64,000 nucleotides of DNA from NCBI GenBank assembly GCA_914767715.1, contig OU612071.1:10709493-10773492 (forward strand). The letters are read 5' to 3'. The translations under genes were made by a program, and so were the position numbers. Shown piece after piece: positions 1,262-61,839 of this stretch. This stretch comes from Membranipora membranacea (lineage: Eukaryota; Bryozoa; Gymnolaemata; Cheilostomatida; Membraniporidae). The notes beneath the pieces are model-generated. The model was given only the letters and a program-made list of their open reading frames with translations. It was not told where the DNA came from and ran no database searches. The stretch's first letter is position 1, and every line of letters begins with the position of its first letter.

Positions 1262-1690
1262 TTGATACAAACTAGAATACCAATTGTCTTTAGTTCTATT
1301 CTTCCAAATTTCTTGTGGATTTTGTCTAGTAGAACAAAAGATTTGCTACACCTATATAAAATTTGTGTGGTAATAACTGTTGTTTTAATATTTATACATA
1401 TAAGGAGGTGATAATATTTGCTGCTATTGAACTACAAGAAGCAAATAAGTCTCTGAGTAGCATGAGCTAGTCGAATTCTGACCTTTACGCATCTAACTCA
1501 ATTGAAAATCCAAGTTGCAGATTTGTCCCTAAGAAGTCTCCTGTTGTGGTTATACAATATGTGTCCCCACTTGTTTGGGGGTGTCTATATTTAGCATTGG
1601 ATTGAGCTTTAGTTTTTTCGTTTCTGATATATACATAATTGATTCTTGTGAAATTATGTAGTATTAGCTATATGATTTAACTCTGTACAG
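1262..1690 (-). repeat. 3' flank of peptide copy A (duplication unit edge)
   Basis: It begins TTGATACAAACTAGAATACC and continues to the poly(A) region of copy A. The same block lies downstream of copies B, C, D, E, G, H and O, and a piece is at 46990-47250. It marks the left boundary of the tandemly duplicated A/B block; left of it the sequence is unique. Confidence 0.75.
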
Positions 1691-2029
1691 ATATGATATG
1701 GTTTATTGTTTAAGTATTTATTGTTCAAAATAAATAATGACAGAGTGAGTAAAGAGAGTCCACGAATCCTGTTGGACTTCATCCTGGTCACGAACTCATC
1801 TCAATTCTGAAATGTTGAAAATATTTTAAATCAATTTAAATTATGCGAATGAAATTGAACTGTATATCACAATACTATTACATATATATATGATATATTG
1901 TATAAGTATTGTATTCAGAGTTACAGCCACCAATAACCTCGTTTCATGGATTATCGTTCCCTGACTTTTCAGTACATATCTACAAAACTGTTATTTAAGT
2001 CTAAATGTTTTTGCTCACCTCTTATGGGT

Positions 2030-2789
2030 TTAACCTTTGATTGCATCAATAACTGCCTCGCCTCCACTGATGGCAGCATCGATTGCTAAACCTGCAGCTG
2101 CTGACTTGGCTGCTGCCTTTACCACGCTACTGAAGACTCCAGCTTCAATCTGTATGACAGCTATAACAAACATCACATTTGAATAGTAATAAAAGGAAAA
2201 ATTTACAAACTCATAGACATTGGCTGATGACAATTATTATTCTACTTCTACTAAATATATATCTTACCCCTTAAACCACTGATGTTACATAGATATATGT
2301 GTGCCTATTGAATTCTCTATAGCTCAACAACTAATAATGCAAGGCTGCAATTTATCATTGTCACCTAATGAGTAAATAATTTGCACCAACTGATCTGCAA
2401 AGTCAGGGTATGAAATTAATCTTCTGTATCCTGTGAAGTAGTTAATGTCTTAGTAGTGGATATTAATGATGTCATCAGCTAGTGCATGAGTTTCATGCCC
2501 TGATTTGAAAGGTCTGCAAATTATATGCCCATTAGATGACAATCCTGAGATTGCCCTCTGTTTGCAGGCAGGTCAGAGCACACCTTGAGGCCAATCAAAC
2601 CCCAGTAGTCGATTCGAATCTACGACCTTCAAATATGCATGCAAAAGGAATGGCGCTCTAACCAACTGAGCCCGCCTCCTTCTCACTAGATAGTGCTTTA
2701 CTGGTAAATTGATTGAGAAACTACAAATACAAAAATTGAAACTCACCTAGTGCAGCAAGAATCAGAGAGATAAGTGCAAAGACCTTCAT
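2030..2789 (-). CDS. Small secreted Ala/Gly-rich peptide precursor, copy A (SINE-intron type)
   Basis: Intact 57-aa precursor in two coding exons: 2747-2789 (ATG at 2789, 43 bases) and 2030-2160 (131 bases, stop TAA). The exons are joined in phase 1 through an AG/GT intron. Non-coding exon 1 starts near 2990 and ends at the GTAAGT donor at 2940-2935. Exon 3 continues 11 bases past the stop to a GTGAGC donor, and 3'UTR exon 4 begins at 1806, with AATAAA signals at 1722-1717 and 1707-1702. Residues 1-21 form a signal peptide (MKVFALISL start, small residues before Gly22; cleavage inferred after IEA). The mature part is about 36 residues, begins GVFSSVVK, is rich in Ala, and ends IDAIKG. The terminal Gly could serve as an amide donor. 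Function is unknown; a secreted membrane-active peptide is inferred. Intron 2 carries a shortened SINE. Confidence 0.85.
2535..2678 (-). mobile_element. tRNA-derived SINE, shortened copy in intron 2 of copy A
   Basis: Read on the minus strand, the head (about 2678-2600) has a pol III A box (GGCTCAGTTGGTTAGAGCG) and a B box-like GGTCGTAGATTCGAATC. These have tRNA spacing and a TTTTGCATGC anticodon-loop-like stretch, close to an Ala-type tRNA. About 185 bases of the body present in copy C are deleted here. The position in intron 2 is shared with copies C, G, I, L and N, so insertion predates the duplications. Confidence 0.75.
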
Positions 2790-3016
2790 TTTCTTGTACC
2801 TACAATGAAAAAAGTGTATGCATTAAAACGAGCAAATTCATTAAACCCTAAACATAAAAAAAACATGATAGTTGATCACATTTACATCCAATATCATGTC
2901 ACAAATGTCTTAATCAATAAATTTACAACCAGATACTTACTTTGGATTTAGAGGTTTAATTCAGTGATGTGCAGTGAGGCTGTAGTCTTGTGATCTTTGT
3001 ATTATATGGTCTCTTC

Positions 3017-3082
3017 TTTTATACTCTCAACACAGGCAACGTGTCATATGCTGGAAGTTGTTATTTTTCTATCGGCTGTTCC
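3017..3082 (-). promoter_or_regulatory. 66-bp core promoter block of copy A
   Basis: On the minus strand it runs from GGAACAGCCGATAG through a CATATG E-box-like site and GTTGCCTGTGTTGAGAG to TATAAAA at 3023-3017. The same block, exactly 66 bp from the GGAACAG edge to the TATA edge, precedes copies B, C, D, F, G, H, I, M and N. The start of transcription is expected about 30 bp downstream, near 2990. Confidence 0.8.
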
Positions 3083-5167
3083 TATTTATGACAAAAAACA
3101 ACAATTAACAATTAATAGTGTGCAGGAGATAAGTTTTAATTGTTTGTGTTCCACATTTTGCAGGATATAAACTATGCACTTATGTCATTTGAGTAACCGC
3201 TGATATCTATTCATGTAGGAAAAAATTGTCTGACAGGATATAGGATATTGGGTTGGTGCTTAGGAAACCCTTCAGTTTTTCATTATAGCAGTAATGAATA
3301 TGTGTCTTAGCTTCGATTGCTTTAATATTTGCCCAAACCTAAACTTGTAACATCCAATGCGCACCGCATTTCAAGAGTGTACTTATCTCTGAACTCACTA
3401 ATAATCTATCATCAACCCATCTGTTTGTATGCTCAAATAATATGGTACACTCCTTTATTTGATAGGGTCGTGCTGACATTAAGGTAGAGACTGCAATAAA
3501 AAGCATAAAAGATTTTTGGAGGGAGCACAGGGTGAGTCATTGACCAGATAGGGTACATAAACATTGTATTTCTACAGCTTGAGCAACTTTAAGGGTTAGA
3601 ATCTGTAGCATGATTCACTCTAACACTCTTAATCAAAAAGAATTTGCATAATCCCAGGCCCACAGATGTACAACTTTTGTGCACTGATAACCCAGTTTTA
3701 CTACATCACCACCCACCCCTGTTCACCCTCAGATTTCTGCCTTTAAAGTCATTTGGTAGAGAAGAAGCTCTCAACAGCACCGAATTTCCTCGGCACACTT
3801 AGATAGCACACAATATGACCATCAATAAAAATCAGAGCTGAGACCAAGTTCCTGCCCTGAGCCAGAGCAGTTTTTATAGTCCTTTGAATTTCGGTCCAAT
3901 TGTCGCAACATACCACTTTAGATATATATATATTCAAAAAGTTGATAAATAAGATTGAAATTTCAAATCATCATCATAAAACGATTTTGGTGACTCAACT
4001 AAAATCTCATATCTCATAGCCAAGATGTTGCAACTACAGAAGGAAAGAAGTTGTTGCAATTTTTTATAAGACTGCTATTTGCGGTTGGTTTTTTTTTTTC
4101 TCATGATGTTTCTGTTTTGAGAATGCAGAATGCACAAATGACAATCTTCAAAAAAAATTGATGTGATAGTTGCACCTATTCCGACTCCAAGGCTTCATTA
4201 CTTTCTTTTTTATAATGAGTTTAGCTCAATGATCTGAAAGAAATCCTCAACAATTCCATTTTCTCCATTGACTAAAAAATAATAAACCTAGAGAGGACAC
4301 TGTATACAGCTGACGTGAGGGACGTAATTGTGGCCGAGGCAAAGACATTGGAAGGTGTAATAGCATTGGTGTTATCATTGATTTACCGTCATTAATCCAA
4401 TGTCATTAATCCAATGTATATCTCAAATTGTATGTTGCGGTAATTGGACAGTATTCAATGGACTTTAAAAACTTCTCTAGGTCTGGGCTGAAGAAATGTG
4501 CAGCTTCTTCTCTACCATTTGACCTTGCGTTAGCTGAAATCTGACAGTGACATAGGGTGGGTGATGATGTAATAAACCAGGATTATCAGTGCACAAAAGT
4601 TGTATATCTATGGGACTGCGGCTATGTATATTTTGTCTGGTTAAAAATAGTGTTTGAATAAACATTGTTACAGATTGCAGCCCTCAAAAATACTCAAGCT
4701 CTAGCACTACAATGTTTATGTACCCGATCTTGTCAATGACCAACCCTGTGCTCGCTCCATAAGTCATTAATTTGTTTTTTTTTCCGATGGCTCTACCTCA
4801 ATGTCAGCACAACCCTATCAAATATAGGAGTGTACCATATTTGTGGATACATACAGTTTGACGATAGATGATTAGTGAGTTCAGAGATAAGTACACTCTT
4901 GAGATGCGATGTGCAGTGGATGTTACAAGTTTAGGTTTGGGCAAATATTAAAGCAATGGAAGCTAAGACACATATTCATTATTGCTTGGGTTTCCTAATC
5001 ACCAACCCAATATCCCATATCCTGTTATACAATTTTTTCCTTTAGGAATAGATATCAGCTGTTACTTGAATCACATAAGTGTATGATTTATATCCTGCAC
5101 AATGTGGAACACAAACAATTGAAATTTGTCTCCAACACACTATTAATTGTTGTTTTTGTTATAAATA
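3083..5167. repeat. Imperfect palindrome between divergent copies A and B
   Basis: The two promoters face away from each other and the spacer is an inverted repeat. The left arm (about 3083-4080) contains blocks such as GCTGATATCTATTCATG and GTACACTC that reappear reverse-complemented in the right arm (about 4416-5167). The geometric centre from the paired exon 2 positions is about 4133. No protein gene is seen; short frames at 3749-3937 and 4477-4665 are repeat shadows. Near the centre ATTAATCCAATGTCATTAAT is a small direct duplication, where about 390 bp present in the C/D spacer is missing. Confidence 0.75.
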
Positions 5168-5233
5168 GGAACAGCCGATAGAAAAATAACAACTTCCAGC
5201 ATATGACATGTTGCCTGTGTTGAGAGTATAAAA
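5168..5233 (+). promoter_or_regulatory. 66-bp core promoter block of copy B
   Basis: It runs from GGAACAGCCGATAG through CCAGCATATGACATG to TATAAAA at 5227-5233. Spacing is the same as in the other copies. It is followed by exon 1, which ends at the GTAAGT donor at 5320. Confidence 0.8.
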
Positions 5234-5476
5234 GAAGAGACCAGATAATACAAAGATCACAAGACTACAGCCTCACAGCACCTCACTGTCACAGCTCATA
5301 TTAACCATCACAATTCACAGTAAGTATCTGGTTGCAAATTTACTGACTATGGCATCATATATAATAATGTTTGAAGTAAATGTTTTAATTTAACATTTTT
5401 GATTTATGATATGGGTCCTATGAATTTGTCTTCTCCCTTATATGTCATATTATTTATTTGATGTAGATACAAGAAA

Positions 5477-5876
5477 ATGAAGGTCTTCGCACTTATATCC
5501 CTGATCATTGCCGCACTCGGTGAGTTTTGCTTCTCCTCTTTACATGAATTCCAAATATGCCACCAGTACAGAAATATGGTAAATAATTGGAATGCAACAC
5601 TGTGAAATCTGTGTTCGGTTTGATCAAAGTTTTGATTCAACAATTTTTCATTATCATCTTTTTCCTAAATAAAAATAACCTCATAGCATTCAATTGCATT
5701 TCACTCACTCCACTTGTAATAATCCAAACATGCTGTCTTTTACAGCTGTTGTACAGATTGAAGCTGGGGTCTTCAGTAGCGTGGTAAAGGCAGCAGCCAA
5801 GTCAGCAGCTGCAGGTTTAGCAATCGATGCTGCCATCAGTGGAGGCGAGGCAGTTATTGATGCAATCAAAGGCTAA
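5477..5876 (+). CDS. Small secreted Ala/Gly-rich peptide precursor, copy B (SINE-free type)
   Basis: Intact 57-aa precursor. Exon 2 coding is 5477-5519 and exon 3 coding is 5746-5876 (TAA), joined in phase 1. Exon 2 begins at 5467 after ATGTAG. Exon 3 follows TCTTTTACAG and ends at 5887 before GTGAGC; 3'UTR exon 4 starts at 6106 after TTTCAG. AATAAA signals are at 6190-6195 and 6205-6210. The signal peptide has Ile-Ile where A and C have Ile-Leu (ISLIIAAL); the mature segment is the same as in copy A. Intron 2 is about 226 bp and lacks the SINE. The last junction is only 11 bases beyond the stop, too close to trigger nonsense-mediated decay by the usual rule. The gene diverges from copy A and is nearly duplicated at copy D. 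Confidence 0.87.
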
Positions 5877-6229
5877 ACCCATAAGAGGTGAGCAAAAACA
5901 ATTAGACTTAAATGACTGTATTGTAGATATGTACTTAAAAGTCAGGGACCAATAACCATTAAACGAAGTTATTGGTGGCTGTAACTCTGAATACCATACT
6001 TATACAATACATCATGGCTCAACATGGATACATCATACATCATGGATACAGTTCAATTTCATTCGAATAATTTAAAATGATTTAATATATTTTCAAACAT
6101 TTCAGAATTGAGATGAGTTCGTGACCAGGAGGAAGTCCAACAGGATTCATGGACTCTCTTTACTCACTCTGTCATTATTTATTTTGAACAATAAATGATT
6201 AAACAATAAACCAAATCATATCTGTACAC

Positions 6230-11300: not shown

Positions 11301-11653
11301 AAAGAGATGATTTGGTTTATTGTTTAATCATTTATTGTTCAAAATAAATAACGAAATAGTTTGTAAAGAGAGTCTTTGAATCCTGTTCGACTTCCTCCTG
11401 GTCACGAACTCATCTCAATTCTGAAATGTTTGAAAATACTTTAAATCATTTTAAATTGTGCGAATGAAATTGAATTGTATATCACAATACTATTATATAT
11501 ATAAACATATATCCATGATGTATTGTATAAGTATGGTATTCAGAGTTACAGCCACCAATAACTTCGTTTCACGGTTATCGGTCCCTGACTTTTCAGTACA
11601 TATCTACAATACAGTCATTTAAGTCTAATTGTTTTTGCTCACCTCTTATGGGT

Positions 11654-12584
11654 TTAGCCTTTGATTGCATCAATAACTGCCTCGCCTCCACTGATGGCAG
11701 CATCGATTGCTAAACCTGCAGCTGCTGACTTTGCTGCTGCCTTTACCACGCTACTGAAGACCCCAGCTTCAATCTGTATGACAGCTATAACAAACATCAC
11801 ACTTGAATAGTAATAAAAGGAAAAATTTACAAACTCATAGACATTGGCTGATGACAATTATTATTCTACTTCTACTAAATATATATCTTACCCCTTAAAC
11901 CACTGATGTTACATAGATTTATGTGTGCTTATTGAATTCTCTATAGCTCAACAACTAATAATGCGAGGCTGCGATTTATCATTGTCACCTAATGAGTAAA
12001 TAATTTGCACCAACTGATCTGCAAAGTCAGGGTATGAAATTAATCTTCTGTATCCTGTGAAGTAGTTAATGTCTTACTAGTGGATATTAATGATCTCATC
12101 AGCTAGTGCATGAGTTTCATGCCCTGATTTCAAAGGTCTGCAAATTATATGCCCATTAGATGACAATCCTGAGATGTAAGTCTTGATTGGTTATTCTAGA
12201 TCTATACAGAATTAAATGTGCCTGAGTGGCAGCAGTAGTTTGAGGATCATTAAACAAACGATTAAAATCAGACTTATCACACACCACATCCCCAAGCATG
12301 GGTAGCGAGAAGGTAGTTGTCTTAGGCCCCAACATCTTCACCAGATTACCCTCTGTTTGCAGGCAGGTCAGAGCACACCTTGAGGCCAATCAAACCCCAG
12401 TAGTCGATTCGAATCTACGACCTTCAAATATGCATGCAAAAGGAATGGCGCTCTAACCAACTGAGCCCGCCTCCTTCTCACTAGATAGTGCTTTACTGGT
12501 AAATTGATTGAGAAACTACAAATATAAAAATTGAAACTCACCTAGTGCAGCCAGAATCAGGGAGATAAGTGCAAAGACCTTCAT
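11654..12584 (-). CDS. Small secreted Ala/Gly-rich peptide precursor, copy C (SINE-intron type)
   Basis: Intact 57-aa precursor, the duplicate of copy A. Coding exon 2 is 12542-12584 (ATG at 12584) and coding exon 3 is 11654-11784 (TAA). Exon 1 starts near 12785 and ends at 12737, before the donor at 12736-12731. 3'UTR exon 4 begins at 11420, with AATAAA at 11336-11331. The signal peptide reads ISLILAAL and the mature segment matches A, B and D. Intron 2 holds the full-length SINE. The coding sequence is nearly unchanged from copy A although flanks carry many substitutions, which suggests purifying selection or recent conversion. Confidence 0.86.
12170..12476 (-). mobile_element. tRNA-derived SINE, full-length copy in intron 2 of copy C
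   Basis: Minus-strand element with the tRNA-like head at about 12476-12400 and a body of about 230 bp. The body reads GGTGAAGATGTTGGGGCCTA and ends near AGACTTACATCTCAGGATTG. Same insertion site as in copies A, G, I, L and N. The long open frame across the body (12156-12389) is repeat-borne and recurs in all full-length copies. Confidence 0.8.
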
Positions 12585-12811
12585 TTTCTTGTACCTACAA
12601 TGAAAAAAGTGTATGCATTAAAACGAGCAAATTCATTAAACCCTAAACATAAAGAAAAACATGATAGTTGATCACATTTACATACAATATCATGTCACAA
12701 ATGTCTTAATCAATAAATTTACAACCAGATACTTACTTTGGAGTTAGAGGTTTAATTCAGTGATGTGCAGTGAGGTTGTAGATTGTGATCTTTGAATTAT
12801 ATGGTCTCTTC

Positions 12812-15702: not shown

Positions 15703-16102
15703 ATGAAATTCTTCGCACTTATATCCCTGATCATTGCCGCACTCGGTGAGTTTTGCTTCTCCTCTTTACATGAATTCCAAATATGCCACCAGTACAGAAA
15801 TATGGTAAATAATTGGAATGCAACACTGTGAAATCTGTGTTCGGTTTGATCAAAGTTTTGATTCAACAATTTTTCATTATCATCTTTTTCCTAAATAAAA
15901 ATAACCTCATAGCATTCAATTGCATTTCACTCACTCCACTTGTAATAATCCAAACATGCTGTCTTTTACAGCTGTTGTACAGATTGAAGCTGGGGTCTTC
16001 AGTAGCGTGGTAAAGGCAGCAGCCAAGTCAGCAGCTGCAGGTTTAGCAATCGATGCTGCCATCAGTGGAGGCGAGGCAGTTATTGATGCAATCAAAGGCT
16101 AA
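15703..16102 (+). CDS. Small secreted Ala/Gly-rich peptide precursor, copy D (SINE-free type)
   Basis: Intact 57-aa precursor, the duplicate of copy B shifted by 10,226 bp. Coding exon 2 is 15703-15745 and coding exon 3 is 15972-16102 (TAA). Exon 1 ends at 15545, exon 4 starts at 16332, and AATAAA is at 16416-16421. The only amino-acid change from B that I see is Val3 to Phe (MKFFALISL, from GTC to TTC), inside the signal peptide and conservative. The mature peptide is unchanged. Confidence 0.87.
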
Positions 16103-21016: not shown

Positions 21017-21613
21017 CTAGCCTTTGATTGCATCAATAACTTTCTCGCCTCCACTGATGGCAGCATCGATTGCTAAACCAGCAGCTGCTGACTTGGCTGC
21101 TGCCTTTATTCCCGAACTGATAAACCCAGCTTCAATCTGTACAACAGCTATTAACAACAATACATTCAGATGGTAATAACAGGAACATTTTACAAACTCA
21201 TAAATATTGCCTCTCACAGAATTGGCTGATGACGATTATTATCCTTCTCCTACTTAATATATCTTCAAGCACTTATGAAACGTGTCTAAATAGAGCTTTA
21301 CTGTTAAATTGATTAAAAAACTACACAAAAAATCAAAACTCACCATGTGCAGCCATAATCAGGGAGATAAGAGCAAAGACCTAAATTTTCTTGTATCTAC
21401 ATCAAATAAAGAGTATGCATTGGAAATTCCTAAAACCCTGGACAATAAAAAAATCTGATAGCTGATAACATTTACAGTCAGTGTCATCGCTTGAATGTCT
21501 TAATCAATAAATTTACAGACAGATACTTTCTGTGTGTTTAGAGGATAGAGACAGTGAAGTGCTCTGAGGCTGTAGTCTTGTGATATTTGTAACAGTGAGT
21601 CACTTCTTTTATA
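21017..21613 (-). pseudogene. Peptide-gene copy E, start codon and exon 1 donor destroyed
   Basis: The gene skeleton is complete: TATAAAA at 21613-21607, exon 1, exon 2 (21344-21386 equivalent), exon 3 (21017-21147, TAG stop) and exon 4 from 20782. In exon 2 the ATG is ATT, and the following Lys codon AAG is TAG. The exon 1 donor GTAAGT reads GAAAGT at 21530-21525, so the GT is gone. Exon 3 stays open, with mature-region changes (GFISSGIK, GGEKVIDAIKG). It lacks the SINE, and the promoter upstream of the TATA has diverged from the 66-bp block. A downstream in-frame ATG exists in exon 2 but would discard most of the signal peptide. I call it dead. The intact exon 3 suggests the lesions are fairly recent or that exon 3 is maintained by conversion. 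Confidence 0.85.
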
Positions 21614-24848: not shown

Positions 24849-25261
24849 CTAGCCTTTGATTGCATCAATAACTTTCTCGCCTCCACTGATGGCAGCGTCG
24901 ATTGCTAAACCAGCAGCTGCTGACTTGGCTGCTGCCTTTACCACACTACTGAAGACCCCAGCTTCAATCTGTACAGCAGCTATAAAAGACAGCATGTTTG
25001 AATGTTTGAGAACTCATTAATACAAGCGGAGTAAGTGAAATGCAATTGAATGCTATGAGGTTGATTTTATTTAGGAAATAGACGATATTGAAAAATTGTT
25101 GAATCAAAACTTAGATCAAACCGAACACAGATTTCACAGTGTCGCATTGCAATTATTTACCATATTTCTGTACTGGTAGCATAATTGGAATATATGAAAC
25201 AGAAGAAGCAAAACTCACCGAGTGCGGCAATGATCAGGGATATAAGTGCGAAGACCTTCAT
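24849..25261 (-). CDS. Small secreted Ala/Gly-rich peptide precursor, copy F (SINE-free type)
   Basis: Intact 57-aa precursor. Coding exon 2 is 25219-25261 (ATG at 25261) and coding exon 3 is 24849-24979 (TAG). Exon 1 runs from about 25480 to 25419, before the donor at 25418-25413; exon 4 begins at 24614, with AATAAA at 24516-24511. The signal peptide reads ISLIIAAL and then Ala-Ala-Val-Gln; the mature peptide begins GVFSSVVK. Near the C terminus it has GGEKVIDAIKG instead of GGEAVIDAIKG, adding one positive charge. The stop is TAG as in E, G, H and O, against TAA in A to D, which splits the family into two clades. It is paired head-to-head with copy G. Confidence 0.86.
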
Positions 25262-27799: not shown

Positions 27800-28731
27800 A
27801 TGAAGGTCTTTGCACTTATCTCCCTGATTCTGGCTGCACTAGGTGAGTTCCAATTTTTATTCTAGCAGGTTTTAAATCAATTTACCAGTAATGCAATCTA
27901 GAGAACAGGAGGTGGGCTCAGTTGGTTAGAGCGCAATTCCTTTTGCATGCAAATTTGAAGGTCGTGGATTCAAATCGCCTACTGGGGTTTGATTGGCCTC
28001 CAGGTGTGCTCTGACCTGCCTGCAAACAGAGGGCAATCTGGTGAAGATGTTGGGGCCTAGGACAATTACCTTCTTGCTGCCCATGCTTTGGGATGTGGCG
28101 TGTGAAATGTCTGATTTTAATCATTGGTTAAATGATCCTCAGACTGCTGCTGCCACTCAGGCGCATTTAATTCTGTATAGATCTAGAATAACCAATCAAG
28201 ACTTACATCACAGGATTGTCATCTAATGGGCATATAATTTGCACAAACAGGCATTCCAAATCAGGGCATGAAACTCATGCACTAGCTGATGACATCATTA
28301 ATTTCCAATAGTAAGACATTAACTACTTCACATGATAGGAAGATTAATTTCATACCCTGACTTTGCCCGATCAGTTGGTGCAAATTATTTACTCATTAGG
28401 TGACAATGATAAATTGCAGCCTGCGTTATTTGTTGGTGAGCTATAGAGAATTCAATAAGCACACATTAATCTATGTAACATCAGTTGTTTAAGGGGTGAG
28501 ATATATATAGTAGAAGTAGAATAATAATTGTCATCAGCCAATGTCTATGAGTTTGTGAAATTTTCCTGTTATTACTATTCGAATGTTCTGTTGGTTATAG
28601 CTGTCGTACAGATTGAAGCTGGGTTCATCAGTAGCGCGATAAAGTCAGCAGCCAAGTCAGCAGCTGCAGGTTTAGCAATCGATGCTGCCATCAGTGGAGG
28701 CGAGAAAGTTATTGATGCCATCAAAGGCTAG
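27800..28731 (+). CDS. Small secreted Ala/Gly-rich peptide precursor, copy G (SINE-intron type, variant mature peptide)
   Basis: Intact 57-aa precursor. Coding exon 2 is 27800-27842 and coding exon 3 is 28601-28731 (TAG). Exon 1 ends at 27644 before GTACGT; exon 4 starts at 28966; AATAAA is at 29050-29055. The signal peptide reads ISLILAAL. The mature segment differs from A to D at its N-terminal part (GFISSAIKSAAK instead of GVFSSVVKAAAK) and has EK for EA near the end. The middle, with GLAIDAAISGG, is unchanged. So variation is concentrated at the two ends of the mature peptide. The intron 2 insertion is the full-length SINE. Diverges from copy F. Confidence 0.86.
27908..28215 (+). mobile_element. 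tRNA-derived SINE in intron 2 of copy G
   Basis: Full-length and in sense orientation. GGAGGTGGGCTCAGTTGG at the head gives the A box. The B box-like GGTCGTGGATTCAAATC follows at about 27959. The body ends near ATCACAGGATTGTCATCTAA. Same site as in A, C, I, L and N. Confidence 0.8.
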
Positions 28732-33717: not shown

Positions 33718-34117
33718 CTAGCCTTTGATTGCATCAATAACTTTCTCGCCTCCACTGATGGCAGCGTCGATTGCTAAACCAGCAGCTGCTGACTTGGCTG
33801 CTGCCTTTACCACGCTACTGAAGACCCCAGCTTCAATCTGTACAACAGCTGTAAAAGACAGCATGTTTGGATTATTACAAGTGGAGTGAGTGAAATGCAA
33901 TGGAATGCTATGAGGTTGTTTTTATTTAGGAAAAAGATGATATTGAAAAGTTGTTGAATCAAAACTTAGATCAAACCGAACACATATTTCACAGTGTTGC
34001 ATTGCAGTTATTTACCATATTTCTGTACTGGTAGCATATTTGGAATTCCTGAAAAGAGGAGAAGCAAAACTCACCGAGTGCGGCAATGATCAGGGATATA
34101 AGTGCGAAGACCTTCAT
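33718..34117 (-). CDS. Small secreted Ala/Gly-rich peptide precursor, copy H (SINE-free type)
   Basis: Intact 57-aa precursor. Coding exon 2 is 34075-34117 (ATG at 34117) and coding exon 3 is 33718-33848 (TAG). Exon 1 runs from about 34335 to 34275, before the donor at 34274-34269. Exon 4 begins at 33483 and AATAAA is at 33399-33394. Mature peptide as in copy F (GVFSSVVK start, GGEKVIDAIKG end). There is no divergent partner; instead, truncated copy I lies directly upstream in the same orientation. Confidence 0.86.
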
Positions 34118-34561: not shown

Positions 34562-35629
34562 TCTGTACGACAGCTATAACCAACAGAACATTCGAATAGT
34601 AATAACAGGAAAATTTTACAAACTCATAGACATCGGCTGATGACAATTATTATTCTACTTCTACTGAATATATATCTTACCCCTTAAACCACTGATGTTA
34701 CATAGATATATGTGTGCTTATTGAATTCTCTATAGCTCATCAACTAATAATGCGAGGCTGCAATTTATCATTGTCACCTAATGAGTAAATAATTTGCACC
34801 AACTTATCTGCAAAGTCAGGGTATGAAATTAATCTTCTGTATCATGTGAAGTAGTTAATGTCTTCCTAGTGGAAATTAATGATGTCATCAGCTAGTGCAT
34901 GAGTTTCATGCCCTCATTTGGAATGCCTGTTTGTGCAAATTATATGCCCATTAGATGACAATCCTGTGATGTAAGTCTTGATTGGTTATTCTAGATCTAT
35001 ACAGAATTAAATGTGCCTGAGTGGCAGCAGCAGTCTGAGGATCATTTAACCAATGATTAAAATCAGACTTTTCACACGCCACATCCCCAAGCATGGACAG
35101 CAAGAAGGTAATTGTCCTAGGCCCCAACATCTTCACCAGATTGTCCTCTGTTTGCAGGCAGGTCAGAGCACACCTGGAGGCCATTCAAACTCCAGTAGGC
35201 GATGGACTGCAGTGCGATTCGAATCCACAACCTTCAAATTTGCATGCAAAAGGAATTGCGCTCTAACCAACTGAGCCCACCTCCTGTTCTCTAGATTGCA
35301 TTGCTGGTAAATTGATTTAAAACCTGCAAGAATAAAAATTGAAACTCACCTAGTGCAGCCAGAATCAGGGAGATAAGTGCAAAGACCTTCATTTTCTTGT
35401 ACCTAAGATGATAAAGGAATATGCATCAAAACGAGCAAATTCATTAAATCCTAAACATAAAAAAAAACATGATAGTTGATCATATTTATCATATCATTAT
35501 CATCTCACAAATGTCTTAATCAATAAATTTACAACCAGAAACTTACTTTGGATTTAGAGGTTTGATTCAGTGAGGTGCTGTGAGGCTGTAGTCTTGTGAT
35601 CTTTGTATTATCTGGTCTCTTCTTTTATA
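34562..35629 (-). pseudogene. Peptide-gene copy I, exon 3 deleted at a recombination junction
   Basis: Promoter, exon 1 (from about 35600 to 35547; donor 35546-35541) and exon 2 (coding 35350-35392, ATG at 35392, donor GTGAGT) are intact, and the SINE-bearing intron 2 continues to its AG acceptor. Only about 13 bases of exon 3 remain (CTGTCGTACAGAT, minus strand, ending near 34562). The sequence then jumps into the upstream region of copy H (TTTCCTTCATGAATAGATAT on the minus strand). The mature-peptide exon and 3' end are therefore gone. A transcript could in principle read on and splice to H exon 2 or 3. The coding potential of I alone is a signal peptide only. Confidence 0.82.
34965..35284 (-). 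mobile_element. tRNA-derived SINE in intron 2 of copy I
   Basis: Full-length minus-strand element. It has an extra 14 or so bases in the head (GATGGACTGCAGTGCG) also seen in copy L and absent from A, C and G, so two SINE subtypes are present at the same site. Confidence 0.78.
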
Positions 35630-46867: not shown

Positions 46868-46984
46868 CAATTGTGGCCATGATATGATTGTTATACTTAT
46901 GGAAAACAGGTCAAAGACTACGCGTTGTTTTCAGCTTTTCATACTTTTTGATGAGGCCCCAACTGCTCTCTGCCCTCACCCCTT

Positions 46985-49320: not shown

Positions 49321-50369
49321 CGTCCGATGAAGACCGTCCTCTTTTTTGTTATGTTGTTTTCAACTGTGCAAAGGTATCCTCTCGCCTACATACCATCTAT
49401 TGCCCACCAAAGTGCAGGACAGGAAAGCATTTAAAGAGCTTTTTTCGCTACTACACGTCAGCAGAATTTAAAATATTCATTTTCATGTACCAATCTAATC
49501 CTATCGTCTGTTAATACAATGATTGTTATAGTAATTGTACAAGCCAAACCAAACCAGAACACGTCATCATCTGGGAAAATGGAACTACATGTAACTATGA
49601 AACTACAGAGGAAAAAGGATGGAAGCATGTGACTAATAATTTCCAAAATTTGAAAATGAAATACACTGGCCAAACTTATTTTTGCCGATGCCGGTAAGGT
49701 TTTTGGAGTTGTTGAGTTTATCAGTGTGATATAGGCGTCAACAGTGAATGTAAGTGAGTGATATTTGAAAAGTACAATTCCTGTAATGATTATTATTATT
49801 ATTCTTATCGTTACATTCACATTATTCTTATTCAATAGTTAATAATTCCCATAAAAACTATTTCAGCTTCATTTAGGTGGAGCCCTGCAGAAATCCTATA
49901 CTTCTCAAGATAGTGCAGCACACTCAACAGTGATTACTGTATAATTGACAATGTCTCCTTACAGAGTGATTTTTTAGTCATTGCAGAAGGGATTGCTGCT
50001 GCCCATTAATTGAAAAACTTCTCTAGCTGTTCAGAAACGTTATTTTGCGGCTCAGACAGGGTTCTATACTAATAGCCATTATTCATACTAAGCCTTAGCT
50101 CATACTAAGCCTTAGCTCATACTAAGCCTTAGCTCATACCAACAAAAAATTATTGCAGGCTGCGGAGGTTTGTGCTTGTGAGCAGCTGTGATGCATATGA
50201 GCACGCAACTCTCGGCTGAGCCAAGCAATAATGCTGGTGATCGTTTGGCCGGCATTTATTTTCCAGTTTTGGAAAGAATCACTGCCTCCATCCTTTTTCC
50301 TCTGTAATTTCATCATTACATGTTGTTCAATTTTTTCAGATGATGACGTGTCCTGTTGTAATAACTACT
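49321..50369. other. Degenerate repeat mosaic, no gene
   Basis: Contains scraps of the inverted-repeat family: CCGGTAAGGTTTTTGGAGTT at about 49690, with GGCGTCAACAGTGAATG following. The minus frame 49458-49835 begins in low-complexity ATT/ATA repeats and is not credible. Confidence 0.4.
50084..50139 (+). repeat. 17-bp tandem repeat, three units plus a partial
   Basis: CATACTAAGCCTTAGCT is repeated exactly at 50084, 50101 and 50118, followed by CATAC. The unit contains the palindromic CTAAGCCTTAG, so each copy can form a small hairpin. Confidence 0.92.
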
Positions 50370-51900: not shown

Positions 51901-51987
51901 GAAATGGTTGAATTTAAACTTTATTGCTGTATCGCTGTTCTGGTAGAATAATTGGTAAACCATGAATTAACGATAAGCGAAACTCAC

Positions 51988-52270
51988 CAAGCGCAGCCAT
52001 GATCAGGGAGATAAGTGCAAAGAACTTCATTCTCTTGTATCTACATCGAATAGGAAAACATGAATTAGAATTAGGCAAATTCATAGATTGAATCCCTCTC
52101 AAAAAACAAACATGATAATCGAATACATTTCCTTCAAACATTATCTTATATGATGCTATGGTGAGTAACTTTGCAACCAGATACTTACTGTGTGTCCTGA
52201 TGGTTAATATGAGCTATGTAAGTGAGGTGCTGTGAGGCTGTAGTCTTCTGATCTTTGTAACAGTGAGTCA
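51988..52270 (-). pseudogene. Peptide-gene copy J, exons 1-2 only with decayed TATA
   Basis: Exon 2 coding 51988-52030 (ATG at 52030) reads MKFFALISL and ISLIMAAL. It has a good GTGAGT donor and an intact exon 1 donor at 52188-52183. The TATA position reads TCTAAAAG (about 52280-52273) and the 66-bp block is unrecognisable upstream. No exon 3 equivalent is found on the minus strand down to 51800. The exon 2 signal-peptide sequence is preserved without a mature-peptide exon, so it is probably a relic or an unlinked exon donor. Confidence 0.75.
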
Positions 52271-52299
52271 CTTCTTTTAGACTCTCAACACAGGCTCCA

Positions 52300-54500: not shown

Positions 54501-54519
54501 GATGGTGCCTGTGTTGAGA

Positions 54520-54808
54520 ATCTAAAGGAAGTGACTCACTGTTACAAAGATCACAATAATACAGCCTCACAGCACCTCACTGTCATAGCTCATATTTACC
54601 ATCGAGACCCACAGTGAGTATCTGGTTGCAAAGTTACTCACCATAGCATCATAAAGCTTATGTTTGAAGGAAATGTATTCGATTATCTTGTTTTTTTTTG
54701 ACATGGGTTCTATGAATTTGCCTTATTCTAATTCTTGTTTTCCTATTCAATGGAGATACAAGACAATGGAGTTCTTTGCACTTATCTCCATGATTCTGGC
54801 TGCACTTT
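54520..54808 (+). pseudogene. Peptide-gene copy K, exons 1-2 only with decayed TATA
   Basis: Mirror partner of J. Exon 1 ends at 54613 (donor GTGAGT). Exon 2 coding 54766-54808 reads MEFFALISM and MILAAL, with the Lys2 to Glu change unusual for a signal peptide n-region. The TATA position is AATCTAAAG. The exon 2 donor context is CACTTT/GTGAGT. No exon 3 follows before the SINE-bearing L remnant. Confidence 0.75.
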
Positions 54809-55299
54809 GTGAGTTTCACTTATCGTTAATTTATGCTTTACCAATTATTCTACCAGAACAGCAATACAGCAATAAAGTTTAAATTCAAAAATTTTCAATT
54901 TCATCTATTTCCTAAATACAAACAATCTCATAGCAGTCAATTTGATTTCACTCACCCAATAAGCACTGTTCCCAATCAGCCTTTTCCATGAAGAGACAGT
55001 GTTTATGAGTTCTCAAATATCTAATTGTTACATAGATAAATGTGTGCTTATTGAATTCTCTATAGCTCAACAACTAATAATGCGAGGCTGCGATTTAGCA
55101 GTGTCACCTAATGAGTAAATAATTTGCACCAACTGAACGGGCAAAGTCAGGCTATGAAATTGATCTTCTGTGTCATGTGAAGTAGTTAATGTCTTACAAG
55201 TGGAAAAATTGATGATGTCATCAGCTAGTGCATGAGTTTCATGGCCTCATTTGGAAGATCTGTTTGTGCAAATTATATGCCCATTAGATGACAATCCTG

Positions 55300-55616
55300 A
55301 TATTTTAGTCTTGATTGGTTATTCTAGATCTATACAGAATTAAATGTGCCTGAGTGGCAGCAGTAGTTTGAGGATCGTTAAACAAATGATTAAAATCAGA
55401 CTTATCACACGCCATATCCCGAAGCATGGGCAGCAAGAAGGTAGTTGTCCTAGGCCCCAACATCTTCACCAGATTGCCCTCTGCTTGCAGGCAGGTCGGA
55501 GCGCGCCTGGAGGCCAATCAAACCCCAGTAGGGGATGGACTGCAGTTCGATTCGAATCCAGGCCCTTCAAATTTGCATGCAAAAGGAATGGCGCTCTAAC
55601 CAACTGAGCCCGCCTC
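55300..55616 (-). mobile_element. tRNA-derived SINE in intron 2 of remnant L
   Basis: Full-length minus-strand element with head at about 55616 and body to about 55300. It shares the extra head segment (GATGGACTGCAGTTCG) with the copy I element. Same intronic site as in A, C, G, I and N. Confidence 0.78.
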
Positions 55617-55684
55617 CTCCTCTCTAGATAATGCTTTACTGGTAAATTGATTGAGAACCTACAAAAATAAAAATTTAAACTAAC

Positions 55685-55727
55685 CTAGTGCAGTCAGAAT
55701 CAGGGAGATAAGTGCAAAGACCTTCAT
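55685..55727 (-). pseudogene. Peptide-gene copy L, exon 2 remnant
   Basis: ATG at 55727, reading MKVFALISL, with a Thr for Ala near the end (CTGACTGCACTAG). Donor changed to GTTAGT but still GT. Exon 1, promoter and exon 3 are missing: upstream from about 55830 the sequence is unrelated, and exon 3 has been lost near 55000-55020. Partner of copy M in a disrupted head-to-head pair. Confidence 0.75.
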
Positions 55728-55829
55728 TTTCTTATACCTACAATGAAGGAAGAGCACATGTTAAAACGAGCAGATTCATTAAACCCAAACATAAAAAAAC
55801 ATGATGTCTACTTATACCATACATTAAAT

Positions 55830-57892
55830 AATTATAGTTGCATAATTTTGCCAGGAATGTGGCATAATCATTGTATAAAGTGGAATAATGAATGTATAAA
55901 CATGATTATTCAGACTTATGCCAGTGTATAATCATTGAATAGGAACTGATTTTGCACAGTGTTATGTCATTTGAGTAACAGCTGATATCTATTCATGTAG
56001 GAAAAAATTGTATAAGAGGATATTGGATATTAGGTTGGTGATAAGGAAACCCTTCAGTTGTTCATTATAGCAATAATAAATATGTGTCTTAGCTTCCATT
56101 GCTTTAATATTTGCCCAAACCTAAACTTGTAACATACACTGCACACCGCATCTCAAGAGTGTACATATCTCTGAACTCACTAATAATCTATCATCAACCC
56201 ATCTGTTCGTATGCCCAAATAATATGGTACACTCCTTTATTTGATAGGCTCGTGCTGACATTGAGGTAGAGACTGCAGTAAGCAACATGACAGATTTTTG
56301 GAGGGAGCACAGGGTTAGTCATTGACCAGATAGGGTACATAAACATTGTATTTCTACAGCTTGAGCAACTTTAAGGGTTTTAATCTATAGCATGATTTAC
56401 TCAAACACTCTTAATCAGAAAAATTTTGCTTAATCCCAGGCCGACAGATGTACAACTTTTGTGCACTGATAACCCAGGTTTACTACATCACCAGCCACCC
56501 CTGTTCACCCTCAGATTTCTGTCTATTAAGTCGTTTGGTAGAGAAGAAGCACTCAACAGCACCGAATATCCTCAGCACCCTTAGATAGCACACAATATGA
56601 CCATCAATAAAAATCAGAGCTGAGACCAAGTTCCTGCCCTGAGCCAGAGCAGTTTTTTGGTCCAATTGTCGCAACATACCACTTTAGATATATATAATTT
56701 ATATATTCAAAAAGTTAATAAATAAGATTGAGATTTCAAATAATGATCATAAAATGATTTTGGTGACTCAACTAAAATCTCATATCTCATAGCCAAGATG
56801 TTGCAACTACAGAAGGAAAGAGGTTGATGCAATTTTTTTAAGACCGTGATTTGGTGATTTGGTATTTTTTTCTCATGATGTTTCTGTTTTGAGAATGCAT
56901 AATGCACAGATGACAATCTTCGAAAAAAATTGATGTGATAGTTGCACCAATTCCGGTCTTATAGAAATTTACAACAACTTCTTTCCATCTGTAGTTGCAA
57001 TATCTTGGCTAATGGGATATGAGATTTTGTTACCAAAATGATTGTAAATGATGATTAATTGAGAGTTTAATCTTGTTTTATTGATTATGAGAATATGTAT
57101 ATCTCAAATTGTATGTTGCGGTAATTGGACATTATTCAATGGACTTTTAAAACTGCTCTAGGTCTGGGCAGAAAACTTGTCTCAGCTCTGATGTGCTATC
57201 AAAGGGTGCTGGAGAAATGTGCAGCGTCTTCCCTACCATTCGACCTTGCGTAAGCTGAAATCTGACGGTGACCTAGGGTGGGTGATGATGTAATAAACCT
57301 GGATTATCAGTGCACAAAAGTTGGATATCTATTGGCCTGAGGCTAGGCATATTTTGTCTGGTTAAGAATAGTGTTTGTATAAACATTGCTACAGTTTGCA
57401 GCCCTCAAAATCAATCAAGCTCTTGCAAAACAATGTTTATGTACCCAATCTTGTCAATGACCAACCCTGTGCTCGCTCCAAAAATCATTAATTTGTTTTT
57501 TTTTCCGGAGGCTCTACCTTACTGTCAGCACGATCCAATAAAATATAGGAGTGTACCATATTTGTGGATATAAACAGATGGTTTGACGATAGATGATTAG
57601 TGAGTTCAGAGATAAGTGCACTCTTGAGATGCCATGTGCAGTGGATGCTCCAAGTTTAAGTTTGAGCAAATATAAAAGCAATGGAAGCTAAAATACATAT
57701 TTATGATTGCTTGGGTTTCCTAATCACCAACCCAATATCCGATATCCTGTTATACAATTTTTCCCTTCATGAATAGATATCAGCTGTTATTCAAATGACA
57801 TAAGTGTATAATTTATAACCTGCAAAATGTGGAACACAAACAATTGAAACTTGTCTCCAACACGCTATTAATTGTTGTTTTTGTCATAAATT
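55830..57892. repeat. Imperfect palindrome between L and M
   Basis: Spacer family of A/B and C/D, geometric centre about 56964. From about 55830 to 55960 a foreign stretch replaces promoter and exon 1 of L; homology resumes at GAGTAACAGCTGATATC (55973). It includes the segment at 56960-57060 shared with 14425-14510. Frames 56483-56916 and 57310-57573 are repeat-borne. Confidence 0.7.
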
Positions 57893-57958
57893 GGAACAGC
57901 CGATAGAAAAATGACAACTTCCAGCATATGACTTGTTGCCTGTGTTGAGAGTATTAAA
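57893..57958 (+). promoter_or_regulatory. 66-bp core promoter block of copy M, TATA variant
   Basis: Block length is preserved (GGAACAGCCGATAG at 57893), but TATAAAA has become TATTAAA at 57952-57958, a weaker TATA variant. Confidence 0.72.
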
Positions 57959-58200
57959 GAAGAGACCAGATAATACAAAGATCACAAGACTACAACCTCA
58001 CAGCACCTCACTGTCACAGCTCATATTAACCATCACAATCCACAGTAAGTATCTGGTTGCAAATTTACTGACCATGGCATCATATATGATAATGTTTGAA
58101 GTAAATGTTTTAATTTAACGTTTTGTTTTATGATATGGGTCCTATGAATTTGTCTTCTCTCTTATATATCATATTATTTTTTTGATGTAGATACAAGAAA

Positions 58201-59040
58201 ATGAAGGTCTTCGCACTTATATCCCTGATCATTGCCGCACTCGGTGAGTTTTGCTTCTCCTCTTTTCATGAATTCCAAATATGCTACCAGTACATTAGTC
58301 TACGCACTGTGCAGGATTTGCTTGGATTTTTCCTCTCATTACTTTTACATTAATCTTACTTCATATAGCCTAGGGTCCAATAATACACATTGTATGACCT
58401 TTTGTCAATGTCATGAATAACCGCCCTTATTCAAAATGAAAGAAATTCTGGCTGACATTTTCTTCACTACTTGGCAGTGAATATCTCTGATCATGGGTAT
58501 TTCCCTAACATGAGGCTACTTTTCCCAGAGTCTGACTGGAATACTCTCATACCTGGAGCAATATAGTAGGTTGCATGAATAGAAATCAATAGATATTGCA
58601 GTTTTAGTGCTCCCCTTGATTAACTTATAACACTCAAGAGCAGACAACTCCAGCGAAATCCTGCATTGTTCTCAGACTTTTTCCCCTCCGGGGGGCCGTC
58701 GGACAGGGGCAAAGTCTGGGGGGCTCAGACTACCAGCACATAAATATGGTAAATAATTGCAATGCAACACTGTGAAATCTGTGTTCGATTTGATCAAAGT
58801 TTTGATTCAACAATTTTTCAATATCGTCTATTTCCTAAATAAAAACAACCTCATAGCATTCAATTGCATTTCACTCACTCCACTTGTATTAATGAGTTCT
58901 CAAACATTCAAACATACTGTCTTTTATAGCTGTTGTACAGATTGAAGCTGGGGTCAGTAGCTTTGTCAGCATCGTCCGGCATAGCAATATACGCAGATAT
59001 CCGTGGAGGCAGTACAGTTATTGACTCAATTAAAGGCTAA
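58201..59040 (+). pseudogene. Peptide-gene copy M, frameshifted exon 3 and lost 3'UTR exons
   Basis: Exon 1 (donor at 58045), exon 2 (coding 58201-58243, MKVFALISL, ISLIIAAL) and the exon 3 acceptor (CTTTTATAG) are intact. Exon 3 (from 58930) reads normally through VVQIEAGV, then has lost 3 and, net, 17 bases. The frame shifts and ends at TGA 59022-59024 after a basic, Tyr/Arg-containing tail unlike the family. The original frame is still visible downstream up to a TAA at 59038-59040. The normal sequence after the stop and exon 4 are absent. Intron 2 carries a 435-bp insertion. It is probably dead, though a short secreted product remains possible. Confidence 0.8.
58295..58729. mobile_element. 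435-bp insertion in intron 2 of copy M with 11-bp flanking duplication
   Basis: Compared with copies B and D, the intron is split at CTACCAGTACA. The target appears at 58284-58294 and again, with one mismatch (CTACCAGCACA), at 58730-58740. The insert ends in a GC-rich hairpin (CAGACTTTTTCCCCT ... AGGGGCAAAGTCTG, about 58674-58717) unlike the AT-rich surroundings. No coding capacity. Confidence 0.7.
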
Positions 59041-59695
59041 AAGTTGAAGTTAGTCTTCAACTAGGAGAAACCTAAACTTGACATATTCACCCTCTTTAAT
59101 TAACATTGTATGAATTCAATTTAGGAGACAACATATAATAATAAAGGATAACCTCTGCAAACAGGTTTTATTATGTAACGCAATCATTAAAATGGTGTTG
59201 TTGTTCATTGTTGGCGTGCACGGTTGCTGTTAAAATATTTCATCTGCCAAGTACTAATGCCTGACCCATCAATGGGGATGTACATGAAGATTGGCCATTC
59301 ACCAATCTAGGCAATTTTATTGAGATGAGGCTCAATCTATTAACCATTACATAGAGAGATCACCATTTTGGTCACATTTCAATTCACAACTGGCTTTAAA
59401 TCAGCACTCACATATGCCACCTTTGCATGCAGGCCTGTTAATCAAGTACTACAGAACAATAATTGCTGTAATATAATGCATTATTTAATTATTCATTAAT
59501 TGCAAGTTATTTAGGGTAATGATCAGTGTCAATATTGGCATCAGTTTGTTTTGCAACACAATTTTATTGCACAGTGTGTGAGGTCAGATTTATAGCATTA
59601 ATCCGGAAATATGCATTATCAGTTGAGAATTTATTTCAAAGTCATTTATCAAAATAGTGTGTCTATGTAATTTGCTAAATTTGGACAGCTTTCAA
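59041..59695. other. Unique sequence, no gene recognised
   Basis: Not shared with other peptide-gene copies. It separates copy M from the LINE fragment. No open frames of note. Confidence 0.45.
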
Positions 59696-59697
59696 AA

Positions 59698-60117
59698 TTG
59701 AGTTCTGCGACTGCAAGTTATGTTGGTTCCTTTGAGAATTCACGTACGACTACAGATCAGACTGCCTCAGTATTACATAATATACAGATATACTCCTGCC
59801 TCTACAATCAACATCGGCGTTCAACCAATTACAGTCAGGTCATTGCGCAGCGTCTCAGATCAGAACTATCACCAATGACCAACGAACTTGGATACACTTC
59901 ATCTTTGGAAGCCGAAGCTGTATTCAAATTCACAAGAGATGTCATCAACGCGCTAGACAACAAGGACACAATGGGTGTCAAAGCACTTTAACTCGACATC
60001 TCAAAAGCGTTTGACAAAATGCAACCAAGCTTCGCTGTTGAGAAAATGCTCAAGTTGGATAATAATCCTGCATTCTTCAAACTCATCCGTAGCTTCCTCT
60101 CCGACAGGCAATGGAAT
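59698..60117 (+). mobile_element. Non-LTR retrotransposon (LINE) reverse-transcriptase fragment with an internal stop
   Basis: One reading frame covers 59698-59988 and, after TAA at 59989-59991, continues to about 60114. It contains a GYTSSLEAEA-type segment, FTRDVINALDNKD, and then LDISKAFDKM followed by FLSDRQ. This is the typical order of RT motifs around the first catalytic aspartate of LINE-type (jockey/CR1-like) reverse transcriptases. The frame ends abruptly where the tRNA-derived SINE head begins. It is a dead, truncated piece of about 140 codons. Confidence 0.75.
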
Positions 60118-60193
60118 GCAATGCAATTCGAATCCATGACCTTCAAATTTGCATGCAAAAGGAATAGCGCTCTAACCAACTGAGCCCACCTCC
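60118..60193 (-). mobile_element. tRNA-derived SINE head only, intron 2 of copy N
   Basis: Minus-strand head from about 60193 to 60118, with the A box (GGCTCAGTTGGTTAGAGCG) and B box-like GGTCATGGATTCGAATT. The rest of the SINE body is missing, replaced by the LINE fragment. Confidence 0.75.
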
Positions 60194-60260
60194 CTCTCTC
60201 TAGATAGTGCTTTACTGGTGAATTGATTGAGAACCTTCAAAAATAAAAATTGAAATTCAC

Positions 60261-60520
60261 CTATAGCAGCCAGAATCAGGGAGATAAGTGCAAAGACCTT
60301 CATTTTCTTGTACCTACAATGAAAAAATAGTATGCAATAATACGAGCAAATTCATTAAACCCTAAACATAAACAAAAGCATGATAGTTGATCACATTTAC
60401 ATCCAATATCATCTCACAAATGTCTTAATCAATAAATTTACAACCAGATACTTACTTTGGATTTAGAGGTTTGATTCAGTGAGGTGCTGTGAGGCTGTAG
60501 TCTTGTGATCTTTGTATTAT
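60261..60520 (-). pseudogene. Peptide-gene copy N, exons 1-2 only
   Basis: Exon 2 coding 60261-60303 (ATG at 60303) reads MKVFALISL, ISLILAAI, with a GTGAAT donor. Exon 1 ends at 60456, before the donor at 60455-60450. Intron 2 runs into the SINE head and then the LINE fragment; no exon 3 is found on this strand. The break is at the SINE. Confidence 0.75.
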
Positions 60521-60531
60521 CTGGTCTCCTC

Positions 60532-60597
60532 TTTTAAACTCTCGACACAGGCAACATGTCATACGCTTGAAGTTGTTATTTTTCTATCGGCTGTTCC
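60532..60597 (-). promoter_or_regulatory. 66-bp core promoter block of copy N, TATA variant
   Basis: Block from GGAACAGCCGATAG at 60597 to TTTAAAA at 60538-60532 on the minus strand; the TATA box carries one substitution. Confidence 0.72.
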
Positions 60598-61000
60598 TAT
60601 TTATGACAAAAAACAACAATTAATAGTGTGCTGGAGATAAGTTTTAATTGTTTGTGTTCCACATTTTGCAGGATATAAACTATGCAGTTATGTCATTTGA
60701 GTAACAGCTGATATCTATTCTTGTAGGAAAAAATTGTCTAACAGGATATGGGATATTGGGTTGGTGATCAGGAAACCCTTCAGTCGTTCATTATAGCAAT
60801 AATGAATATGTGTCTTAGCTTCCATTGCATGAATATTTGCCCAAACCTAAAATTGTAACATCCACTGCACACCGCATTTCAAGAGTGTACTTATCTCTGA
60901 ACTCACTAATAATCTATCATCAACCCATCTGTTTGTATGCTCAAATAATATGGTACACTCCTTTATTTGATAGGGTCGTGCTGACATTAAGGTAGAGACT
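60598..61000 (-). repeat. Upstream flank of copy N, ending at a deletion junction
   Basis: Follows the left arm of the standard palindrome until GACATTAAGGTAGAGACT, then jumps at about 61000 to intron 2 sequence of an SINE-type gene (CATGCACTAGCTGATGACAT) leading to copy O. The centre, right arm, promoter and exons 1-2 of the expected partner are deleted. Confidence 0.75.
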
Positions 61001-61328
61001 CATGCACTAGCTGATGACATCATTAATTTCCACAAGTCAGACATTAACTATTTCACATGATATGGAAGATTAATTTCATTCCCTGACTTTGCCGATCAGT
61101 TGGTGCAAATCATTTACTCATTAGGTTACAATGATAAATTGCAGCCTCGCATTATTAGTTGTTGAGCTATAGAGGATTCAATAAGCACACATTTATCTAT
61201 GTAACATCGGTGATTTAAGGGGTAAGATATATATGTAGTAGAAGTAGAATAATAATTGTCATCAGCCAATGTCTATGAGTTTGTAAAATTTTCCTGTTAT
61301 TACTATTCCAATGTTCTGTTGGTTATAG

Positions 61329-61459
61329 CTGTCGTACATATTGAAGCTGGGTTCATCAGTTCGCGAATAAAGGCAGCAGCGAAGTCAGCAGCTGCTGGTT
61401 TAGCAATCGATGCTGTCATCAGTGGAGGCGAGAAAGTTATTGATGCAATCAAAGGCTAG
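61329..61459 (+). pseudogene. Peptide-gene copy O, orphan exon 3 with exon 4
   Basis: Exon 3 coding is open from the AG acceptor to TAG. It reads VVHIEAGF and GFISSRIKAAAK, and ends GGEKVIDAIKG, with Val for Ala in IDAVISGG. Exon 4 begins at 61694 and AATAAA is at 61778-61783. Exons 1 and 2 and a promoter in this orientation are absent because of the deletion near 61000. Changes not seen elsewhere (Gln to His in the signal region, Ala to Val in the invariant core) fit relaxed constraint. Confidence 0.8.
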
Positions 61460-61839
61460 ACCCATAAGAGGTGAACAAAAACTATTAGGCTTAAATAAAT
61501 GTTTTATAGATATGTACTAAAAAGTCAGGGAACAATAATCCATGAAACGAAGTTATTGGTGGCTGTAACTCTGAATACCATACTTATACAATACATCATG
61601 GATATATGTTTATATATGTAATAGTATTGTGATAGACAGTTAAATTTCATTCGCATAATTTAAAATGATTTAAAATATTTTCAAACATTTCAGAATTGAG
61701 ATGAGTTCGTGACCAGGAGCAAGTCCAACAGGATTCCAGGAATCTCTTTACTCACTCTGTCATTATTTATTTTGAGCAATAAATAATTAAACAATAAACC
61801 ATATCATCTCTGTACACAGTTAAATTATATAGCTAACAC

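Follow-up and report, generated by a model that had tools for sequence, protein, structure and literature searches.

Why should a bryozoan genome carry, side by side, many similar genes for a very short peptide, and what might such peptides do? The question is raised by a stretch of 64,000 nucleotides of Membranipora membranacea (C7:10,709,493-10,773,492), hereafter the window, which was analysed together with searches of the genome it comes from (339,339,785 bases in 18 contigs). Judged by eye at conserved positions, the mitochondrial COX1 of this genome is best translated with invertebrate code 5, and an ascidian origin was discarded.

Gene structure and promoter of the window cluster

A preliminary description, made from the letters of the window alone, had proposed fifteen copies, seven intact and eight broken, with coding exons of exactly 43 and 131 bases joined in phase 1. 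All fifteen were located in the window, and both exon lengths and the phase were confirmed. The intact copies lie on both strands (A, C, F and H on the minus strand, B, D and G on the plus strand).

2747..2789, minus strand: copy A, signal exon (43 bases), intact gene
2030..2160, minus strand: copy A, mature exon (131 bases including the stop)
5160..5325, plus strand: copy B, promoter (CTTCCAG element, TATA box) and non-coding exon 1
5477..5519, plus strand: copy B, signal exon, intact gene
5746..5876, plus strand: copy B, mature exon
6080..6190, plus strand: copy B, conserved stretch containing the predicted 3' UTR exon, acceptor inside
12542..12584, minus strand: copy C, signal exon, intact gene
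11654..11784, minus strand: copy C, mature exon
15703..15745, plus strand: copy D, signal exon, intact gene
15972..16102, plus strand: copy D, mature exon
21017..21147, minus strand: copy E, mature exon, open; signal exon (about 21344-21386) without start codon, broken
25219..25261, minus strand: copy F, signal exon, intact gene
24849..24979, minus strand: copy F, mature exon
27800..27842, plus strand: copy G, signal exon, intact gene
28601..28731, plus strand: copy G, mature exon
34075..34117, minus strand: copy H, signal exon, intact gene
33718..33848, minus strand: copy H, mature exon
35350..35392, minus strand: copy I, signal exon without mature exon, broken
51988..52030, minus strand: copy J, signal exon without mature exon, broken
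54766..54808, plus strand: copy K, signal exon without mature exon, broken
55685..55727, minus strand: copy L, broken; signal exon with neither mature exon nor promoter match
58201..58243, plus strand: copy M, signal exon, broken; frameshifted mature exon at 58930-59041
60261..60303, minus strand: copy N, signal exon without mature exon, broken
61329..61459, plus strand: copy O, mature exon without signal exon, broken

In an intact gene, a TATA promoter is followed by a non-coding exon 1, the 43-base signal exon, the mature exon, whose coding part is 131 bases long, and a 3' exon that contains AATAAA. This four-exon gene, also part of the earlier proposal, stands as a predicted structure based on conserved splice sites. 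The exon-1 donor starts with GT in all seven intact copies (copy G has the weaker GTACGT), the stop codon of the 131-base coding exon sits shortly upstream of the splice donor, and exon 4 with its AATAAA is present in seven out of seven. Translation predicts the 57-residue precursor that had been announced, consisting of a 21-residue signal and a 36-residue Ala-rich peptide with Gly as its last residue. Three distinct mature peptides are predicted from the seven intact genes.

Among the broken copies, E lacks its ATG, M is frameshifted, and O has a mature exon but no signal exon. The signal exon is present in I, J, K, L and N, none of which has a detectable mature exon behind it. The start codon was lost by an identical change in E (window 21386) and in copy P (window coordinate 66511, outside the window), and both mature exons are open; thus the loss is probably older than the duplication that separated them.

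The cluster extends beyond both ends of the window, from about -9 kb to +99.7 kb in window coordinates (133 kb examined). Many copies form head-to-head pairs that were duplicated as units, with long blocks that are 90-97% identical.

A fixed promoter had been described as common to the copies. The promoter stretch was indeed found at 13 of the 15 copies, but not at L or O. Across the clusters of the genome, 38 of 45 gene models have an RCTTCCAG element ahead of the TATA box at a near-fixed spacing, as against about 0.0008 occurrences per shuffled window. Its position relative to the TATA box is -34 both in the window cluster and in the short cluster of C7; it varies from -30 to -34 in C10 and from -37 to -41 in C1, and is -71 in C6. 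Seven models lack the element (C7m_a0, C7m_H, C10_L036, C1_L065, C1_L066, C1_L067 and C1_L076); one of them, H, is an intact window copy. Two of the 45 models have no recognised TATA box, and in most models the splice donor is located 77-97 bases downstream of it. A strict element-spacer-TATA pattern, which leaves out the C1 form of the TATA box, gave 71 matches genome-wide, 70 of them inside three family clusters, and the two controls gave one match each.

Members of the family in the genome and beyond

The copies had been attributed to a rapid local expansion. The expansion is borne out, but "local" was too narrow, as family members were found on four chromosomes. Whole-genome searches with four mature-exon peptides, once merged, gave at least 124 distinct mature-exon places at E<=1, among which 111 had E<=0.001. 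These are distributed as 41 at C7 1.1-2.9 Mb, 37 at C1 32.4-33.2 Mb, 18 on C10, 18 at C7 10.5-10.81 Mb, 6 at C1 37.3 Mb, 2 on C6, and 2 at C7 10.0-10.2 Mb. Some of the weaker places are partial matches; those at C1:33.040, C1:33.118 and C10:6.378 Mb were nonetheless full genes on reading. A degenerate pattern for the signal exon only gave at least 131 matches in 339 Mb, against a single one for the reversed control, which excludes chance. Both genome-wide counts take in broken copies and are lower bounds.

Among the signal-exon matches listed, the one at C6:26.0 Mb belongs to a divergent subfamily whose peptide has a central proline. With this subfamily as query, four further places on C7 were obtained (E 0.02-0.03), and a signal exon was present in the three that were fetched. 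No family gene was found at the candidates C3:12.55 Mb and C6:16.17 Mb. At C7:2,574,076-2,635,517, genes of the short-peptide subfamily form a very regular tandem array that repeats about every 6.0-6.5 kb; an identical acidic peptide is encoded by the two copies that were read. Judged from sequence, the family is real, large (more than 100 copies, broken ones included) and apparently undescribed.

The gene plan was kept between subfamilies. At loci picked solely by a mature-exon match (L048-L067), a signal exon was present in 20 out of 20, which indicates that the two exons travel together. In a second set of 12 loci, 10 had a signal exon; for the remaining two, L034 and L035, the signal-exon pattern matches some 3 kb upstream, and in one of these two matches, which was read, the splice donor is changed. 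From a scan of 55 loci, 42 two-exon models were obtained (33 distinct), among them three copies of the window cluster lying just outside the window. The scan needs a signal-like start, and loci with off-pattern signals, such as L069 and L083-L085, are missed. The second coding exon completes the signal (AVxQxEA), then specifies one mature peptide, 21-39 residues long with the Gly placed directly before the stop. Just ahead of the expected cleavage site stands Ala, Cys or Ser and, in rare cases, Val or Gly. A C-terminal Gly is present in 37 of the 42 models, in a tally made with no filter on the last residue; the five others (L045, L050, L054, L064 and L075) are truncated or frameshifted, and L059, which has the Gly, lost its ATG. 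Signal exon, phase-1 intron and C-terminal Gly are thus common to subfamilies, whereas the mature part differs strongly. The inference that the predicted products are secreted is well founded.

The claim that the peptides match no named family held in Pfam, PDB, the protein collection and the literature searched, within the limits of those sources. Fourteen superfamily members compared with Pfam-A at E<=10 gave only weak hits to DUF735, DUF6223 and Claudin_2, none of them credible. Neither single sequences nor a profile of the 14 members found a PDB chain better than E 0.4, and the weak matches at or beyond this value (syntrophin, alpha-synuclein and others) were set aside as chance. Among 5.8 billion proteins, seven short reading frames were recovered: P0001 is the window's own, and P0002-P0007, of metagenomic origin, each match a copy of this genome exactly, or with one residue different, in the mature-exon part. 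One of the protein-collection searches scored the 7,990 candidates sharing most words. Six peptide fragments had no match in the literature searched. Queries on bryozoan antimicrobial peptides, Membranipora peptide families and cecropins returned no description of the family in a literature that was mostly non-subscription, and the family is undescribed in the accessible parts of PMC8609888, PMC13326412 and PMC5577615. With one bryozoan genome searched, the "undescribed" and "lineage-restricted" status is provisional.

Three known systems share parts of this plan. Cecropins are short secreted helical peptides with a C-terminal Gly for amidation, encoded by clustered genes, and are strongly cationic. 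Unlike them, the Membranipora peptides have no strongly cationic N-terminal helix, their net charge being -4 to +4, and an intron interrupts their signal. The cecropin profile PF00272 was listed for none of the 14 members at E up to 10, in a search where HMMER filters drop most weak matches. Active peptides of frog skin, such as the preprodermaseptins, combine a conserved signal with diverse amphipathic helical peptides that are often C-terminally amidated; they differ in having an acidic propeptide with a processing site. Frogs belong to another phylum, and the likeness is one of kind.

The nearest parallel in gene plan is provided by the myticalins and modiocalins of mussels, a marine lophotrochozoan multigene family with pseudogenes; they are set apart here by their description in the accessible part of PMC5577615. 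According to the same part of that source, myticalins likewise have a non-coding exon 1, one intron directly ahead of the ATG and another in phase 1, a conserved signal, a hypervariable mature part, and a predicted Gly-dependent amidation. Their mature peptides are Arg-rich and cationic, lie on one exon with the signal, and precede a dibasic site and an anionic extension (PMC5577615, same part). In the Membranipora family, by contrast, signal and mature parts are on separate exons, charge ranges from negative to positive, and no extension of the myticalin type lies behind the mature peptide in the 37 models ending in Gly.

Selection, peptide properties and possible roles

Is the family kept for its peptides? 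It could be a functionless repeat family, spread by segmental duplication or by a mobile element: 8 of the 15 window copies are broken, the repeated units are head-to-head, and dispersed elements lie within them. Selection on the signal argues against this. By a Nei-Gojobori count over copy pairs, which are not independent, the dN/dS of the signal is 0.15 in the window cluster, 0.16 in C10 and 0.29 in C1, with a range of 0.13-0.29 for informative groups (models outside the main cluster were required to end in Gly, and the C1 pair statistics use 12). The signal is under purifying selection. Splice sites and promoter are also conserved between diverged clusters. Finally, the intergenic unit matches sequences outside the cluster only through a dispersed end stretch of about 120-140 bases, among the 40 of 1149 candidates that were scored; with matches confined to this end, a transposon origin is unlikely. 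Altogether, we consider a functionless repeat family extremely improbable.

The mature part gave ratios of 0.69 in the window cluster, 0.60 in C10 and 0.53 in C1, so that the signal is more constrained than the mature part in three of four clusters. In the fourth, the C7 short cluster, the ratios of 2.36 and 1.81 are not significant, divergence being too low to inform. The 0.69 of the window cluster is indistinguishable from neutrality, as 18% of bootstraps fell at or below zero; within this cluster the ratio is 1.12 for the first half of the mature peptide and 0.36 for the second. When one representative per cluster was compared, pN was well below pS, for signal and mature parts alike.

In some pairs the mature exon diverges above the level of the second intron (B-S: 15/108 versus 10/226). 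In the B-S pair the adjoining third intron is also elevated (29/226), which suggests that exchange of mature-exon cassettes accounts for part of the divergence. Differences between mature exons of the window cluster may therefore be due largely to cassette exchange rather than to point diversification.

Together, A, G, S, V, T, I and L make up 62-87% of the residues. For 13 subfamily peptides, net charge ranges from -4 to +4, assuming a free N-terminus and an amidated C-terminus, and a simple cationic antimicrobial reading thus leaves some subfamilies uncovered. At the helix angle (100 degrees), the whole-length mean moment was above the shuffled mean for all 13, and at p<0.05 for seven. The combined helix p of 4e-8 is overstated because the peptides are related. 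At the beta angle, nothing rose above shuffles (combined p 0.94, same 13 peptides). The helical moment of the best 18 residues was above the shuffled mean in 13 of 15, mostly slightly, and below it in two; it reached p<0.05 in one. The genome has 14 matches to PF03712, a domain of peptide-amidating enzymes that also covers related monooxygenases. These matches are candidate amidating enzymes, and conversion of the last Gly to a C-terminal amide is likely. The preliminary description had conjectured antimicrobial, venom-like or self-recognition effectors. Helical amphipathicity and the C-terminal Gly would fit membrane-active amidated peptides.

Our best reading, which we hold about as likely to prove right as wrong, is that the genes encode secreted, C-terminally amidated, membrane-active defence peptides. 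Gene architecture, copy number, selection on the signal, amphipathic periodicity and the family-specific promoter are read from the sequence itself: each gene carries a TATA promoter, in most clusters with CTTCCAG just upstream, and a predicted non-coding exon 1. The product would be secreted via its conserved signal, and its final Gly would yield a C-terminal amide, PAM-type domains being encoded in the genome. Mature peptides would fold as amphipathic helices on membranes and defend the surface of the colony from microbes, epibionts or small predators. The peptide set would keep changing as head-to-head pairs are duplicated and mature-exon cassettes exchanged between copies.

The same residue composition, and the fact that the peptides are not all cationic, would also suit surface, mucus, cuticle or adhesive peptides, abundant small helices rich in Ala, Gly, Ser and Val that coat or condition the colony surface in a structural or antifouling role, with copies serving dosage rather than diversity. 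Long arrays of near-identical genes, many copies with identical products and a strong conserved TATA promoter agree with such a role. Still, the mature parts of subfamilies differ beyond what dosage needs, and a lone short helix without cross-linking residues or repeats would be unusual for a structural protein, so that we regard this reading as unlikely.

Peptides that are secreted, variable, multi-copy and probably amidated could instead serve chemical communication, as signals carried by water or presented on the colony surface (in gamete function, settlement or self-recognition), and cassette exchange could make individual combinations. However, the few metagenome copies are equal or nearly equal to those of this genome, and a receptor ligand would not need the periodicity of an amphipathic helix. 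Communication appears to us decidedly unlikely.

The strict CTTCCAG-spacer-TATA promoter, with 70 of its 71 places in family clusters, might define a private regulon, under which oppositely charged subfamilies (acidic 20-mers and cationic 35-mers) would be co-secreted and work jointly as mixed helical assemblies on the colony surface; we rate this very unlikely. Little on the secreted-peptide and immune repertoire of bryozoans was found in the literature searched. Found via its architecture and not by homology, the family offers candidate peptides for defending the surface, or for colony communication, in an animal that encrusts kelp, and a clear case, in a chromosome-level assembly, of a constrained signal exon and a conserved promoter combined with a changing mature exon.

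Other sequences in the window

No match to Rfam at gathering thresholds, nor any tRNA, was found in the window. A U2 snRNA-like stretch at 783-915 (plus strand) scored 43.8 bits versus a gathering score of 46, and is likely a U2 pseudogene or a diverged copy.

Two dispersed elements were observed. One, at about 2270-2553 and by eye also at about 55080-55330, is repeated genome-wide with 77-80% identity; a tRNA-like segment was seen alongside by eye, and the element appears SINE-like, lying in introns of some copies. The other, of about 120 bases, at about 4278-4400, is dispersed over many chromosomes with 82-89% identity.

Between 40496 and 46177 (plus strand), a run of open frames of 118-244 residues has no credible Pfam match; it may represent a mobile element in decay or else an unrecognised gene. 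The open frame at 59671-59991 (plus strand), with no Pfam match, resembles by eye a reverse-transcriptase fragment. Positions 50083-50139 form a perfect tandem repeat, with 3.4 copies of a 17-base unit.
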